Origin: Flavobacteriales bacterium
Lineage (GTDB): Bacteria > Bacteroidota > Bacteroidia > Flavobacteriales_D > Crocinitomicaceae
Reading direction: 5' to 3'
DNA: 49,608 nt
Assembly: GCA_013373595.1 (NCBI GenBank)
Contig: JABXHO010000028.1
Location: 1-49,608 of the forward strand
Shown one piece after another: positions 13,367 to 19,411 of this stretch; positions within the stretch are counted from its first letter, which is position 1, and each line of letters begins with the position of its first letter. A program made the position numbers and the translations under genes. The notes under the pieces are model-generated. The model was not told the origin of the DNA, did no database searches, and saw nothing but the letters and a program-made list of their open reading frames with translations.

Positions 13367-14959
13367 TTAGTTTTTCATTAATTCCTTTCTGAATGCTTCT
13401 CCAGAATCACTTGTCATTTTCAGAATGTATGTTCCAACTGGGTATTGACCGAGTGATATACTCAATGATGATACTCCATCAACTGTTTTTGATTGAAGTA
13501 CTTTTCCGTCGATATCGTACAGTTCCCATTTTCCAGTGAAGGCATCGGAAGCATCAAAGTTGATGTTTACTTCGTCCGCAGTTGGGTTTGGATACACTTC
13601 AACAGTTCCTCCAAGGAACAATTCATCTACACCGATTGTTGAAACCATTACAGAATCACAGTAGTCAACCGATCCACAGCTGCTGTAGGCCGTAAAACAA
13701 ACAAAGTATCCACCATTTGACGTATACGTATGTTGTACGTTGGTTCCTGAACCTGTGCTTCCATCACCGAAATCCCATGAAACAGAATCCTCATTGGCAA
13801 CGGTTCCTGTGAAGTCTACAGTTCCACCATTCACAGAGCTTGTGAAAGACAGTACTGGGACTAAATTCACGGTTACGTCCAATGTGTCATTGGCACGACA
13901 TCCATTGCTCGACTCTACGGTAATTTGAGATGAAGCGATTAGTGCTCCTGTATTGATATTCGTTCCTGAAGTAGCCGTTACTCCGTCGATGTACCAATCG
14001 TACACTTCAGCTCCTGAAGGATTACTGATGGATAAATCCAACGAATCACCTTCACAAACAACAGAATCGCCAGTAATAACTAAATCTGTAGCGTCTAGTA
14101 TATCGATTGTTACCGCCAATGTATCATCTGAGGTATCGCCGTCACCAACTAATGACACAATGAGTTCAGCATTCAATGTTCCTCCTACTTGTGTGTTAAT
14201 CACAGCCATGTTCAAATCCATAGATGCATTTCCAAGTAAGGAAGGAATCGTATCGTAATAAGTTCCTGTTACCAATCCTGATAGGTTTAGTTCTACTGGT
14301 ACGTTGATCTCGTCGTTTGCTGTTAGGTTCGTTACTGTAACTTTTACAGAATCACTTACGTCTCCACAATCCAAGTCGAATGGCTCGAAAACAGCTGTCG
14401 CTTCAACATTTGAAGGGAGCACCCCTGAGATAACTGCGACATAATCTTCTGTTTCTCCATAAGAGCCAATGCTGGATGTACATGCATCTGATCCAGTAAG
14501 GACGGTGCTGTATGCACACATCACACGCATTGGAAGCGGTGTACCAATAACAACACCTGGAAAAGTAGATGCGATGGTGATTGTTCCCGTATGACTTAGG
14601 GCTGCAGTAGACGATGCATAGACTTGTTCAGAAGCATCATAGACACCATCGTTATTCAGATCGATCCAAATAGCTAATCCTTGATCATAAGTAGCACCTC
14701 CAACATTAGCTGATAGTGCATAAGGAACGTCCAAATCGAAGTTGAAAACCGGGGTTGAGTACGCCGAGTATCCAGAGGAATTTGAGCAGCCTGTGTTCGA
14801 GGAAGTTGTGGTTCCAATGCTGAAATTGTCAATGGCATCTCCGTATGAACAGTCGTTAGTTGGACCTGTTGTTACAGCGCATTGAGCCGATACATTTTGT
14901 GATAGCACTCCTGCCATAAAAAAAACAAGAGCAGTTGATTTTGAATAGAATTTTTTCAT
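13367..14959 (-). CDS. Secreted GEVED/PKD-domain protein with T9SS type A sorting domain
   Basis: Large cell-surface or extracellular protein of 530 residues. Signal peptide (about 1-25, cut after VSA), then a GEVED domain (about 70-178) with IWIDLNNDGVYDASEQV and the naming motif GETEDYV at 168-174. A CARDB-like beta-sandwich follows (about 190-290), then Ig-like strands with GDSVVCEGDSLDLSIS, then a PKD domain (about 365-440) with SWDFGDGSTGSG and HTYTSNGGY. The end (about 455-530) is a T9SS sorting domain starting VEVYPNPTADEVNI. No enzyme domain is present, so adhesion or matrix binding is likely. Calcium sites in GEVED (DxNxDG) look intact. Single gene with its own terminator. Confidence 0.9.
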   Translation of the reverse strand: MKKFYSKSTALVFFMAGVLSQNVSAQCAVTTGPTNDCSYGDAIDNFSIGTTTSSNTGCSNSSGYSAYSTPVFNFDLDVPYALSANVGGATYDQGLAIWIDLNNDGVYDASEQVYASSTAALSHTGTITIASTFPGVVIGTPLPMRVMCAYSTVLTGSDACTSSIGSYGETEDYVAVISGVLPSNVEATAVFEPFDLDCGDVSDSVKVTVTNLTANDEINVPVELNLSGLVTGTYYDTIPSLLGNASMDLNMAVINTQVGGTLNAELIVSLVGDGDTSDDTLAVTIDILDATDLVITGDSVVCEGDSLDLSISNPSGAEVYDWYIDGVTATSGTNINTGALIASSQITVESSNGCRANDTLDVTVNLVPVLSFTSSVNGGTVDFTGTVANEDSVSWDFGDGSTGSGTNVQHTYTSNGGYFVCFTAYSSCGSVDYCDSVMVSTIGVDELFLGGTVEVYPNPTADEVNINFDASDAFTGKWELYDIDGKVLQSKTVDGVSSLSISLGQYPVGTYILKMTSDSGEAFRKELMKN

Positions 14960-15030: not shown

Positions 15031-16710
15031 TTAGTTGAAATCAGGTATTTTTACCTGTTGTATTTCTCCTGTTTTCGTTGATTGGACTTTAACGGTATAA
15101 GCTGATTTCTTTTTCGTTTTAAACTCTACTAAACGTACTGATTCTGAGTTTATTGAAAGTGTAACTTCTTTCACGTTTCGACCGTTCTTTTGGAGTGAAA
15201 TGGTATACAAATCTTCTTCCGATCCGATATTGAAAACTTTTACATTAATTTCTCGTTTTCGCTTCCTTAACGAGTTGCGAATGAGTTTGCTAGTGTAAGC
15301 ATATGGATAGAGTGAAGGGGCTGGACAAACTCGGTACTGCGGAAACGCTTTCCATTCATTGGTGTTCGAATCAAATTGCTCGGCAAACATGCTCCAAACA
15401 ACGTCGCCTGTGCGTGTTAATTCAATAAAACGATTGATAGCACCCAAGTTCACTAGTATGTTGCCGTTTGACAATTCATTTACGTTACCCGTCTTAACGG
15501 CTTTCCCATTTGTCAATGTGTCAAAATCGAGTTTGAAATCCAGTAGTTTCTCAGAAGTGCCATTCTTCAACCTGGAAAAAACAACAACACTCGACACAAC
15601 ATCTGGATCCATAACAGAATCGTTGTTGAGAACCGCCATGTTTCCATCCGATAGTCGGAGTGCGTCATGTTGTCTACGGAAGAATCCTGTTGCTACGTGA
15701 GGTTCGCTGAATACACCGTAACCTCCGTACGATTCAATTGCTTTTCCAGATTTTTTATCGATGACTACAATGCGACTAATGTCTCTGAAACCAACGTAAA
15801 CCTCATTTCCATGCATCGTACAAGCGTTCATGTGTGTGCGTGTGTCGTATCGATCACCGCGCTTGCGTGAAAATAGGTCAGCATCCGTAAAATAATCGTT
15901 GCTGTTCCAAGACCAAACGAGCTTTCCATCAGGATTGTACTCCATGATTGTTCCAAATTCTACATTGATGGAATCGTTGCTGTTAGGAACTCGGCGGTTT
16001 ACATGATCTAATCCTAAAACGAGGTAATTTCCATTCGGTAGTTTCGTAAACTCATGGTGATAGTGCTCTCGATCTTCTCCATTCACTTGACCGTCGTCAG
16101 GAGCCATCCAAAGTATTGTTCCTTTTCGATCAAATTCCACAGCTGATTCTCCAAAGATCGCGGTAAAGGTTCCAGATGGCGTGAATTTTAAATCGCGAAC
16201 GCGTGTCTCCGTAAACAGGCTGTCTGTTTCGGGAATATACCATACTGCTTTTCCTGCTTTGTTGATGCCGACACGTCCGTAGTCCAAGAATAATAAACTT
16301 CTTTGAGATTTCAAACGATCGAGCTTCTTTCCATCATAACGGTACTTGTTTGGGGCAATGTAATCTGAAGTGGCAATATGAAACGAGATAGGAGTTGACC
16401 AAGGCATTTTTTCACCTATGGAAGTCAAACCGCGTACTTTCCATGTGTAGCTTGAACCAAAATTTAGCCCATCTAAACGAATTTTATTGGCTTCTGAAAT
16501 GGCTGATAAGTTTCCTTTGCCAGATTCGTGGATGGCGATTAGCTCATACGACTCAGCGCCATCAATCCAGGGAAATTCGAAAAGGATAGATGTAAAATTG
16601 AGTGTGTCGTTGGAAGCAGGGGTAAATTGCGCGTTGGTCGTGTTAGAAGCTAAAATTAATAGCAGGAAAGCCAATAGTTTAGCACTGTGAGTAGAGATCG
16701 TGTTTTTCAT
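15031..16710 (-). CDS. Arylsulfotransferase-like (ASST) beta-propeller protein, copy 1
   Basis: Signal peptide (about 1-27, cut after NAQ), a fibronectin-like N-terminal domain (about 30-115), then a propeller of the arylsulfate sulfotransferase type. In that family a histidine carries the sulfuryl group from a phenolic sulfate ester to a phenol acceptor. The four expected catalytic residues are present: His219 in YHHEFTKLPNGNY, His293 in HMNACTM, Arg309 in VGFRDI and His348 in RRQHDALRL; this residue mapping is by eye against the E. coli enzyme. A short C-terminal beta domain closes the protein, without a T9SS signal. It is divergent from tsdA by 52 bp, and its closest visible relative is the gene after tsdA. 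Confidence 0.82.
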   Translation of the reverse strand: MKNTISTHSAKLLAFLLLILASNTTNAQFTPASNDTLNFTSILFEFPWIDGAESYELIAIHESGKGNLSAISEANKIRLDGLNFGSSYTWKVRGLTSIGEKMPWSTPISFHIATSDYIAPNKYRYDGKKLDRLKSQRSLLFLDYGRVGINKAGKAVWYIPETDSLFTETRVRDLKFTPSGTFTAIFGESAVEFDRKGTILWMAPDDGQVNGEDREHYHHEFTKLPNGNYLVLGLDHVNRRVPNSNDSINVEFGTIMEYNPDGKLVWSWNSNDYFTDADLFSRKRGDRYDTRTHMNACTMHGNEVYVGFRDISRIVVIDKKSGKAIESYGGYGVFSEPHVATGFFRRQHDALRLSDGNMAVLNNDSVMDPDVVSSVVVFSRLKNGTSEKLLDFKLDFDTLTNGKAVKTGNVNELSNGNILVNLGAINRFIELTRTGDVVWSMFAEQFDSNTNEWKAFPQYRVCPAPSLYPYAYTSKLIRNSLRKRKREINVKVFNIGSEEDLYTISLQKNGRNVKEVTLSINSESVRLVEFKTKKKSAYTVKVQSTKTGEIQQVKIPDFN

Positions 16711-16715
16711 TGAGG

Positions 16716-16723
16716 CAAAATTA
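16716..16723 (-). promoter_or_regulatory. Candidate -7 box for arylsulfotransferase copy 1
   Basis: The minus strand reads TAATTTTG, an exact TAnnTTTG match, five bases before the ATG. The -33 element is unclear. The plus strand has a near-match TACTTTTA at about 16725-16732 that could serve tsdA, so the 52-bp spacer may hold two back-to-back promoters. Confidence 0.35.
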
Positions 16724-16762
16724 ATTACTTTTACCCAAACTTACCATAATTGAAAAATTGCT

Positions 16763-17752
16763 TTGCTGAATCGAATCCTCCTTACTGTTTTTTTATTGGC
16801 TCTTGTCATTTTCGGATGCACAAATAATACCACAACTACTGCTGTTTCTTCTGATGTTACGGTTGTGATTGAAGAAGTACATACTGGACCGGATTTAAGC
16901 ACTATTCCTGAAGGTCCCGAAGGCGATATGATTCGCTACGGTAGGGAATTAGTGATGAATACAGCAAAATTGATCGGTCCTGATGGTTCGGAAGGACACT
17001 ACCTCGGAAACAAAATGAACTGTACGAATTGTCATTTGGATGGCGGACTTCGACCTTACGGCTACAATTATTTCAGTACTTACGGGCGTTATCCGCAGTA
17101 TCGTTCCCGAGAAAATGCAGTTCTTACAATTGAACAACGTGTGAATAATTGTGTTGAGCGTCCGCACAATGGAAGTCCGATTCCTTTAGGTTCAAAAGAA
17201 ATGGTTGCCTTCGTTTCTTACATTCAATGGGCGAGTCAGGGCGTTCCAATAGGAGAGAAGGTGAAAGGTTCAGAAACCTATGCATTGACTTTTCCAGCTC
17301 GTGCAGCAGATCCAGTTAAGGGAGAAAAGCTCTACACACAGCATTGTGCGCGTTGTCATGGCGAAAACGGTGAAGGAATTTGGCTTTCAGATAGCTCAAC
17401 CTACGAATACCCGCCATTGTGGGGAGAATACGGTTATCAACCTGGATCAAGTATGTTTAGGTTGATCAAAGCGGCACAATTCATCAAAGCGAATATGCCA
17501 TTTGACCAAGCGAGTTGGGAAAAGCCGATCTTAACAGACCAAGAAGCATTTGATGTAGCGGCGTACGTAAATGATCCGAAGCATCCACGTCCTAGTAAGA
17601 AAGGGGCGGATTACAATGATATTTCTACGAAATACGTCGATTATCCATTTGGTCCATACGACGATCCGTTTTCTGAGAAACAGCACAAATACGGTCCATT
17701 TCAACCGATTATTGATTACCGAAAAGAACACGGACTATACCTGAGTTACTAA
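16763..17752 (+). CDS. tsdA: TsdA-like thiosulfate dehydrogenase/tetrathionate reductase (dihaem cytochrome c lipoprotein)
   Basis: Joins two thiosulfate molecules to tetrathionate with release of two electrons, or the reverse. The 329-residue protein has a lipobox (VIFGC, Cys19), then two cytochrome c domains: CTNCH at 87-91 and CARCH at 195-199. Cys130 in VNNCVERPHNG sits where TsdA enzymes have the unusual His/Cys haem ligand, and the family run FPQYR-like GRYPQYRSREN, FIKANMPF and the C-terminal GPYDDPFSEKQHKYGPF are all kept. Only a TTG start is available that includes the lipoprotein signal; no in-frame ATG lies upstream. The next gene starts four bases after the stop, so they are co-transcribed. 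Lipid anchoring suggests it faces the periplasm or outer surface. Confidence 0.88.
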   Translation: MLNRILLTVFLLALVIFGCTNNTTTTAVSSDVTVVIEEVHTGPDLSTIPEGPEGDMIRYGRELVMNTAKLIGPDGSEGHYLGNKMNCTNCHLDGGLRPYGYNYFSTYGRYPQYRSRENAVLTIEQRVNNCVERPHNGSPIPLGSKEMVAFVSYIQWASQGVPIGEKVKGSETYALTFPARAADPVKGEKLYTQHCARCHGENGEGIWLSDSSTYEYPPLWGEYGYQPGSSMFRLIKAAQFIKANMPFDQASWEKPILTDQEAFDVAAYVNDPKHPRPSKKGADYNDISTKYVDYPFGPYDDPFSEKQHKYGPFQPIIDYRKEHGLYLSY

Positions 17753-17755
17753 GCT

Positions 17756-19411
17756 ATGAGTAGAACGCTTCTTTTTTTTGTTATTGCATTCTGCGGTCAG
17801 TCGGGAATCGCTCAACAATTGGTGCCCGCTGACGGAGCTGTTATTACCCGAACATCGATTTTGTTTGAAGTTCCAGAGGTGGTGGGAGCGAAAACATATA
17901 CGTATCATATCGAATCGGCCAAAGGAAATACAATAGATTTAACCGATGACAATCATGTGCTGCGGGTTGATGGCTTATCATTTGGTGAATCGTACAACTG
18001 GAAGGTAACCGCACTGGATTCGGTTGGAAAAACCTTGTATACATACAATCAAGGCTTTGAAATTGCTACTTCTGACTTTGTGAATCCGAAAGAAACCAGA
18101 TTTCATATTGTCGGTGCATCAAATAACCGTAAGATCAAAGGACTTATATTTCTTGATTACAGTCGCGTAGCTATTACACCAGATGGAAAGCCAGTTTGGT
18201 TTCTGCCCGAAAGAGAGAGCTTGAAAAACAAGCGATTGCGTGATCTCAAATTAACGAATCGAGGTACGGTAACTTATTTGGACGCGCTGAAGTGCGAGGA
18301 ATCTTCTCTTGATGGTGATTTGATTTGGAGTACGCCAGATACGAGTGAACTTACGGGAGAATCCAACGATTTGTATCACCACGAATTCACCTTGCTTTCC
18401 AATGGGAATTATTTGGCGCTAGGAAAAGAGTTCGTCCCAAGTGAATTGATGATTAATGGTGCAGAAGTTTCCAAACTTCCTTTGTCGGTTATTATCGAAT
18501 ATTCACCTGAAGGAAAGGTGGTTTGGAGTTGGAGCTCCAGTGAATTTATAAGCAATGAAGATATTCTTGCCATTGGGCAGAAAGTAGGAGTGGGGAATAC
18601 CTTTGGACACATGAATGCAGCGTATTTTGATGTCAAAACAGGTGTGATTTACGCTAGTTTCCGTGATCTGGACTGTATTCTTACCATTGAAAAAGAGAGT
18701 GGGAAGATACTTCAGTCGTACGGAGATAAAATTCCGTCGGATACAACTACACAAGGGATTGATTTGTTCGCAAAGCAACACGCACCGATTAAATTACGAG
18801 GAGATCGGCTACTGTTTTTCAACAATAATGAACGTAACGAAACATCATCGGTGCAGATTATTTCAGAGGTAACGGATGAAAATCCAAAAGCTGAAATCCT
18901 TTGGGAATTCTTTTGTGATTTCGATTCACTTCGCCCGGCACACTCTCCACGGATGGGAAATGCACTTCCTCTTGAAGATGAACACATTCTTGTAAACATG
19001 GGGAAAGCTGCGCGCGTTTTTGAAGTGAGTCCTGATAAAGAAGTGACTTGGCAATGTTTTCCTGAAATTTGGGACGGTGGACTTAACAGATGGCATCCGC
19101 AACCGAACTATCGCACTTTTAACATTTCATCTCTGTATCCTTACTATCACACTGTTTCGCTACGTAATGAAAAGATCCGTGTTTACAATGAAGGAAGTGA
19201 GGATGACACATACATTATTCGGGCATATGCAGAGCCCAAAAAGCGAAAGAAAACAAAGAAAGTTGAGCTGACTATCGAAAAAGGTCAATTTATTGATATT
19301 CAACTATCAAGTTTATTCAATCGAAAGTTAAAGTCTAAGACTGTCTATGTCGAAGTCAGCTCGAAAAACAATCCAGGTTTGGTAGTCGAGCGAAGTTATT
19401 TGGTGAGGTAA
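17756..19411 (+). CDS. Arylsulfotransferase-like (ASST) beta-propeller protein, copy 2
   Basis: Paralogue of the ASST-like gene on the other side of tsdA, with the same plan: signal peptide (about 1-19, cut after IAQ), N-terminal beta domain with TSILFEVP and SFGESYNWKV, propeller and short C-terminal domain. The catalytic set is again complete: His209 in YHHEFTLLSNGNY, His285 in HMNAAYF, Arg303 in SFRDLD and His342 in AKQHAPIKL. It starts three bases after the tsdA stop (TAA GCT ATG), so the two are one operon. The copies differ strongly in sequence, so the duplication is old, and they may act on different sulfate esters. Substrate not visible. Confidence 0.82.
   Translation: MSRTLLFFVIAFCGQSGIAQQLVPADGAVITRTSILFEVPEVVGAKTYTYHIESAKGNTIDLTDDNHVLRVDGLSFGESYNWKVTALDSVGKTLYTYNQGFEIATSDFVNPKETRFHIVGASNNRKIKGLIFLDYSRVAITPDGKPVWFLPERESLKNKRLRDLKLTNRGTVTYLDALKCEESSLDGDLIWSTPDTSELTGESNDLYHHEFTLLSNGNYLALGKEFVPSELMINGAEVSKLPLSVIIEYSPEGKVVWSWSSSEFISNEDILAIGQKVGVGNTFGHMNAAYFDVKTGVIYASFRDLDCILTIEKESGKILQSYGDKIPSDTTTQGIDLFAKQHAPIKLRGDRLLFFNNNERNETSSVQIISEVTDENPKAEILWEFFCDFDSLRPAHSPRMGNALPLEDEHILVNMGKAARVFEVSPDKEVTWQCFPEIWDGGLNRWHPQPNYRTFNISSLYPYYHTVSLRNEKIRVYNEGSEDDTYIIRAYAEPKKRKKTKKVELTIEKGQFIDIQLSSLFNRKLKSKTVYVEVSSKNNPGLVVERSYLVR

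Follow-up and report, generated by a model that had tools for sequence, protein, structure and literature searches.

A clade of TsdA-like cytochromes coupled to arylsulfotransferase-type propellers in Bacteroidota suggests an undescribed sulfur-chemistry step outside the cytoplasm

Within a 49,608-nucleotide stretch of contig JABXHO010000028.1 from a Crocinitomicaceae genome (Flavobacteriales bacterium, GCA_013373595.1), hereafter the window, a gene for a TsdA-like dihaem cytochrome lies between two genes for arylsulfotransferase (ASST)-type beta-propellers (Table 1). Open reading frames (ORFs) and domain matches bear out this arrangement, which a preliminary description had drawn from the DNA letters alone, including the divergent 52-bp gap to propeller 1 and the operon-like layout with propeller 2, which starts 3 nt past the tsdA stop and is likely in one operon with it. 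The cytochrome belongs to a clade of TsdAs (clade 1) that is almost certainly coupled to such propellers, and the pair suggests an undescribed sulfur-chemistry step outside the cytoplasm. TsdAs of Bacteroidota occur in two settings: one group is often found in SoxB-type sulfur islands, and the other combines ASST pairing with an altered substrate pocket.

Each protein family of the pair is already known, as is the presence of tsdA with soxB in Bacteroidetes, which are listed among the holders of both homologues (PMC7608252; papers are cited throughout for the parts available). We found no description of the pairing, of a TsdA clade with the Pro and Ser replacements detailed below, or of the two settings in a literature coverage outside which most subscription papers fall, and the word 'sulfotransferase' does not occur in the available parts of PMC12345210 and PMC11582611. 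A 2026 review attributes the poor understanding of the physiological role of bacterial aryl sulfotransferases to the lack of identified natural substrates (PMC13426309); a conserved partner of known sulfur chemistry makes the natural-substrate question directly testable. Moreover, since the Bacteroidota TsdAs fall in two groups, surveys that call all of them 'thiosulfate dehydrogenase' may mislabel one clade.

Linkage of clade-1 cytochromes to ASST propellers

TsdAs scoring above 340 bits against the window protein were assigned to clade 1 and the remainder to clade 2, giving a non-redundant set of 40 clade-1 sequences (from 39 genomes) and 52 clade-2 sequences. A quickly built tree with 91 rows (midpoint root, no bootstrap, one fragment left out) places clade 1 on one side of a branch with an SH-aLRT support of 91. 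A low-scoring TsdA on a long branch (L216, genome G590) joins next to clade 1 and shares its Pro; it has no linked propeller and was counted in clade 2. One more clade-1 gene, truncated where its contig ends (G802), was left out of the counts; a propeller adjoins there too.

Among 399 evenly sampled genomes of the order, 22 contain a TsdA match at E 1e-15, and five of these TsdAs (that of the window's genome and those of four more genomes, together spanning three genera) are at least 56% identical to that of the window, the other 17 being 40-46% identical. Propellers neighbour all five of these clade-1 genes, the window counted, versus none of the other 17, whose flanks were read up to 8 kb or the contig end in 14 cases and for about 1.5 kb in three. 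Across 395 evenly sampled Bacteroidota genomes, 46 TsdA places in 44 genomes were found at E 1e-30; an ASST ORF adjoins 12 of the 13 clade-1 genes (window counted) versus 0 of the 33 others, all of which were read. The one exception (G503) carries four ASST matches elsewhere in its genome. Without the window, the phylum-wide linkage yields a Fisher p of 1.2e-9, kinship not corrected; on these counts and this test we reject chance adjacency. Over the whole non-redundant set, a propeller lies in the fetched flank of 34 of the 40 clade-1 genes and of 0 of the 52 clade-2 genes. The ASST family PF05935 is present in 13/13 genomes with clade 1, in 5/31 with clade 2 only and in 6/20 TsdA-free genomes, the latter being the first listed of 351 and not a random draw.

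Starting instead from the propellers, we scanned contigs with a seven-sequence alignment, which returned 34 loci in 28 genomes, all with titles of Bacteroidota groups. A TsdA stands beside the propeller in 12 of these loci; the scan was seeded with the window's subfamily and misses distant pairs, as it did those of families f17 and f36. The other 22 loci (within L064-L097) hold window-type propellers with no TsdA in the fetched flank. Three of the 28 genomes were already known; a whole-genome search of the 25 newly met ones detected a TsdA in 24 and one of clade 1 in 22, figures that inform on linkage and not on frequency, as the genomes were chosen for having a propeller. Conservation across families, set beforehand as a check in the preliminary description, was found, with the pairing recurring in several Bacteroidota families. 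The same pairing in other genomes and families rules out a strain-specific neighbourhood, and the ASST residues are kept in the propellers (see below); these were the two points on which the earlier proposal had been staked.

Gene order and propeller phylogeny argue that the coupling is functional. Of the propellers closest to each of the 34 linked clade-1 genes, 17 are divergent, 10 codirectional and 7 convergent, and no more than 216 nt separates the open frames; the window has one divergent and one codirectional propeller. A quick ASST tree of 87 rows, which drew a long-branch warning from the program, divides the linked propellers among three regions (window type, f17/f14 type and f36 type); the f36-type linked propellers nest with unlinked paralogues from f36, and labels change 8 times compared with a shuffled mean of 29. 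It appears that clade-1 TsdAs were joined by a new propeller repeatedly, or that a newer propeller took the place of an older one. The varied orientations and the spread of the propellers over the tree argue for a functional TsdA-propeller coupling, and we infer that repeated recruitment is its strongest sign.

That an ordinary thiosulfate dehydrogenase came to lie beside ASSTs by chance, or through shared ancestry of one locus, is accordingly very improbable. The clade-1 genes do share common descent, and the 4-8 ASST genes per f36 genome raise the chance of adjacency in that family. However, the only ASST match in each of six f17 genomes is the neighbour of TsdA in 6/6, the linked propellers fall in three groups and three orientations, and none of the 52 clade-2 genes is linked.

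Residues of the cytochrome and propellers

The window cytochrome comprises a SoxA-TsdA_cyt-c domain and a second cytochrome c domain by Pfam, with two CxxCH motifs. It matches solved TsdAs with E-values from 2e-41 to 4e-39 (3.8e-39 for Allochromatium vinosum TsdA, 4wq7), and against the SoxA equivalog model TIGR04484 it scores 74.2 bits, below the cut-off of 110. Mapped on A. vinosum TsdA, its Cys130 corresponds to the haem ligand Cys123, Arg116 to Arg109, Arg126 to Arg119 and Pro134 to Ser127; Ser230 and Asn244-Met245 are its further residues of note. Both haem motifs and the special Cys ligand had been named in the preliminary description, and the alignment supports these assignments. Like clade 1, the A. 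vinosum and Campylobacter jejuni TsdAs have two c-haems, a Cys-ligated haem 1 and the Arg109/Arg119 pair, and the Asn-Met at haem 2, common to both clades, is also that of C. jejuni TsdA (PMC5146829).

Clade 1 differs from known TsdAs in its pocket and in its propeller linkage. The positions of Cys123, Arg109, Arg119 and Arg224 are kept in 40/40 clade-1 sequences, whereas Ser127 is replaced by Pro and Gly221 by Ser in all 40; among clade-2 sequences, Ser at 127 and Gly at 221 are found in 51 of 52. In A. vinosum TsdA, thiosulfate contacts the main-chain amide of Gly221 and three side chains (Arg109, Arg119, Ser127), and Ser127, stated to be invariant in TsdA and absent from SoxA, has been suggested to serve the second thiosulfate and thus the second half-reaction (PMC4423706). 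The S127A variant shows a Km of 4.4 versus 0.22 mM, and its kcat was not reduced at 0.2 mM ferricyanide (PMC4423706); Ser127 is therefore not essential for turnover, its loss costing mainly affinity. Judged by alignment, clade 1 retains what the first half-reaction is predicted to need, and the features thought specific to the second are altered, from which we infer that its acceptor may have changed.

Both window propellers pass PF05935 (58.7 bits for propeller 1 and 54.8 for propeller 2; cut-off 24.2) and also PF14269, and they are 36% identical to each other. Propeller 1 was modelled and the prediction has the ASST fold; its N-terminus gives a weak fn3 match below the cut-off. Relative to ASST, His348 corresponds to His436 and His218/His219 to His252, both on the basis of a profile alignment to 3elq that is weak, with no residue-level superposition, and His293, Asn295 and Arg309 were placed by motif and by alignment to Cpz4 as equivalents of His356, Asn358 and Arg374. 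His348 of propeller 1 is probably the sulfated histidine, and the columns of His348, His219 and Asn295 are invariant across 71/71 propellers. The kept His columns and the ASST fold rule out proteins of other function that lack ASST residues. Compared with the aryl sulfotransferases independent of 3'-phosphoadenosine 5'-phosphosulfate (PAPS), E. coli AssT and Streptomyces Cpz4, the window propellers show identities of about 15-19% and their residues after about 471 fall outside the match at the C-terminus; their genomic partner is a cytochrome and not dsbA.

The tetrathionate hydrolase of acidophiles is likewise a beta-propeller, thought to be periplasmic or in the outer membrane and to act after tetrathionate formation (PMC10859504); it is eight-bladed, works by Asp325 chemistry and comes from acidophiles. 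No such hydrolase turned up by sequence, and the 50 fold matches listed do not include one, which excludes nothing.

Genomic settings and possible function

Recurrent clusters of sulfur genes were found within 6 kb of 50 clade-2 TsdAs (among L169-L235), each cluster being named by Pfam from one representative. They include an OprD-like porin (29 loci), Sulf_transp/YeeE halves (26 and 22), a metallo-beta-lactamase plus rhodanese (26), TauE (22), a short protein that has no Pfam hit but looks DsrE-like by eye (24) and a SoxB-like metallophosphatase/5'-nucleotidase (21). The SoxB model TIGR04486 gives one member of the last cluster 247 bits, so the model's cut-off of 550 does not divide these proteins. 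The clade-2 islands resemble in their gene content the TsdA-SoxB-SdoA/B route of Erythrobacter flavus, where TsdA and SoxB are reported to act on tetrathionate (PMC7608252).

The clade-1 surroundings differ. Beyond TsdA and the propeller, the only cluster in more than 7 of the 40 loci encodes GEVED-type secreted proteins (16), and no sulfur dioxygenase or YeeE-type gene recurs beside the pair in this cluster count. No protein exceeds the TIGR04486 cut-off in the 31 of 39 clade-1 genomes searched; SoxB-like matches above 200 bits occur in three of them, on other contigs than the clade-1 TsdA, and two lie beside those genomes' clade-2 TsdA. A YeeE-type search of 21 of the 39 genomes gave matches in 7/7 from f17/f14 and 0/14 from the window family, f36 and four others; 15/17 clade-2 genomes have one. 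The SoxYZ model PF13501 was found in 0/38 genomes, but the controls were silent as well.

Two groups have settings of their own. In f17/f14, the order SusC-SusD-ASST-TsdA-GH123 is kept in 7/7 loci (L158, L159, L160, L162, L164, L166 and L168; Pfam naming from the L158 locus and the propeller of L168), with a DUF5107 protein in 6/7, a polysaccharide-locus-like setting that contains a cytochrome. In f36, a rhodanese-like gene within about 1 kb and a nearby porin-like gene accompany the clade-1 TsdA in 5/5 loci (L157, L161, L163, L165 and L167); a comparison of the porin-like protein with the OprD-like protein of clade 2, made to see whether they are related, gave no match.

The reading we tentatively prefer is that the pair forms an extracytoplasmic two-enzyme sulfur module, in which the cytochrome would make an S-sulfonate and the propeller would move its SO3 group in SoxB's place. 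Its steps are drawn from the residues and the partner swap, and the substrate, acceptor and direction are predictions. The cytochrome would bind thiosulfate or a like S-SO3 compound via Arg116 and Arg126, a Cys130-thiosulfonate would form and two electrons would leave through the second haem. With Pro in place of Ser127, it would then hand the group to an acceptor besides or instead of a second thiosulfate to give an S-sulfonate, whose terminal SO3 the propeller would take onto His348 and pass to water, releasing sulfate, or to a hydroxyl acceptor. The propeller would fill the role expected of the SoxB-like protein beside many other TsdAs.

The partner swap, a SoxB-like protein near 21 of 50 clade-2 TsdAs and an ASST propeller at clade 1, appears to favour such a module, as do the f36 rhodanese-like genes, the kept arginines and Cys, and the invariant propeller columns. 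As in the Erythrobacter pathway, a TsdA would be joined to a partner able to act on S-SO3, but here the partner is a propeller in place of SoxB, and the pair has no recurrent sulfur dioxygenase or YeeE-type gene beside it. In the available parts of a review, tetrathionate hydrolase and SoxB alone are named as hydrolases of this chemistry (PMC10859504), and the propeller, if the reading is true, would be a new third type. The preliminary description had proposed an exported system in which TsdA-type chemistry is linked to sulfuryl transfer; recurrence across families strengthens that proposal, while its name 'thiosulfate dehydrogenase' proved too firm because clade 1 is without the Ser127 described as invariant in TsdA. 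Between the two uses it had offered for the propellers, we tentatively incline to sulfur-bound sulfonate over sulfate esters.

Several observations weigh against the S-sulfonate module. Six of the 40 clade-1 genes have no propeller in the fetched flank, the Arg374 column holds Arg in 41/71 propellers and Lys in 23, and many clade-2 TsdAs have rhodanese relatives nearby too. The altered pocket does not necessarily imply a new acceptor, because S127A kept its kcat and Ser could keep the main-chain contact of Gly221. The donors known for ASSTs, as listed in PMC13426309, are sulfate esters, the SusC-SusD/GH123 setting of f17/f14 points to an organic substrate, and with YeeE-type transporters at 0/14 a full thiosulfate-oxidation route is not evident in those genomes. 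Our preference stays tentative because this setting and the missing transporters favour an organic substrate or the opposite direction.

The opposite direction, in which a sulfate ester would be the propeller's SO3 donor, sulfide or a thiol would be the acceptor and the cytochrome would oxidise the resulting thiosulfate or S-sulfonate, seems to us doubtful. It would accommodate the ester donors, the SusC-SusD and GH123 neighbours in the seven f17/f14 loci, the 28 of 31 clade-1 genomes with no SoxB-like match above 200 bits and the 14 of 21 with no YeeE-type match. Yet no ASST with a sulfide or thiol acceptor is reported in the literature passages covered, the f36 loci have the rhodanese-like gene with no glycan gene noticed there, and no SusCD stands beside the window's pair. 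If true, organosulfate use would be coupled to electron flow, the ester being a sulfated glycan or phenol.

Somewhat less probable still is a shared regulon or organic substrate with no shared sulfur intermediate, the ASST desulfating a compound while the cytochrome acts on a different part of it or only carries electrons. The polysaccharide-locus-like f17/f14 context and the changed pocket residues would fit, whereas the Cys ligand and both oxyanion-binding arginines in all 40 clade-1 TsdAs, and the further neighbours that differ among the window family, f17/f14 and f36, do not. Finally, it is improbable that thiosulfate oxidation drives PAPS-free extracytoplasmic sulfation, the cytochrome's S-SO3 compound being the natural ASST donor for surface glycans or phenols; such a system would power sulfation by redox chemistry and identify an inorganic compound as the natural donor of an ASST.

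Features of the window and of plasmid relatives

Table 1. Features of the paired locus, in window positions
Feature	Positions	Strand	Length and basis
GEVED/PKD protein, type 9 secretion tail	13367..14959	-	Pfam; codirectional with and downstream of propeller 1
ASST-type beta-propeller 1	15031..16710	-	559 aa; signal-peptide-like start (by eye); PF05935
Spacer between the divergent starts of propeller 1 and tsdA	16711..16762	.	52 bp; ORF coordinates and sequence
TsdA-like dihaem cytochrome, clade 1	16763..17752	+	329 aa; PF21342 and PF00034; residue tables
ASST-type beta-propeller 2	17756..19411	+	551 aa; signal-peptide-like start (by eye); PF05935

The cytochrome ORF starts with TTG and contains a lipobox-like LVIFGC, read by eye, and its product is probably a lipoprotein. 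The window genome (4.69 Mb, 179 contigs) has a single TsdA match at E 0.001 and three PF05935 matches, namely the two window propellers and one on contig C62 (G000:C62:3192-4298, L242), which falls in a different part of the ASST tree.

Plasmid records include 52 with a TsdA relative and 15 with a weak propeller relative, and no accession is common to the 15 and 10 matches listed for the two. Six TsdA records were opened: five are annotated, with no ASST by the cytochrome, and one is unannotated. Pairing on plasmids was rejected within the scope of these listed and opened records. Ser occupies the Ser127 place in 4/4 readable motifs, two of the six not being readable. Clade-2 sulfur islands lie on plasmids in two opened cases (L236 and L241 are listed with them). 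On pRUNSL04 of Runella slithyformis the cytochrome is near DsrE, metallophosphatase/5'-nucleotidase, OprD porin, YeeE/YedE and metallo-beta-lactamase hydrolase genes, and on Paks1 of Pontibacter akesuensis a nucleotidase and a rhodanese stand by it.

The GEVED/PKD protein has a 47% identical counterpart at the same position in L035, and matches to it (E up to 1e-3) lie directly downstream of 11 of 69 propellers, the window's included and two of them weak. It is possibly accessory to propeller 1.

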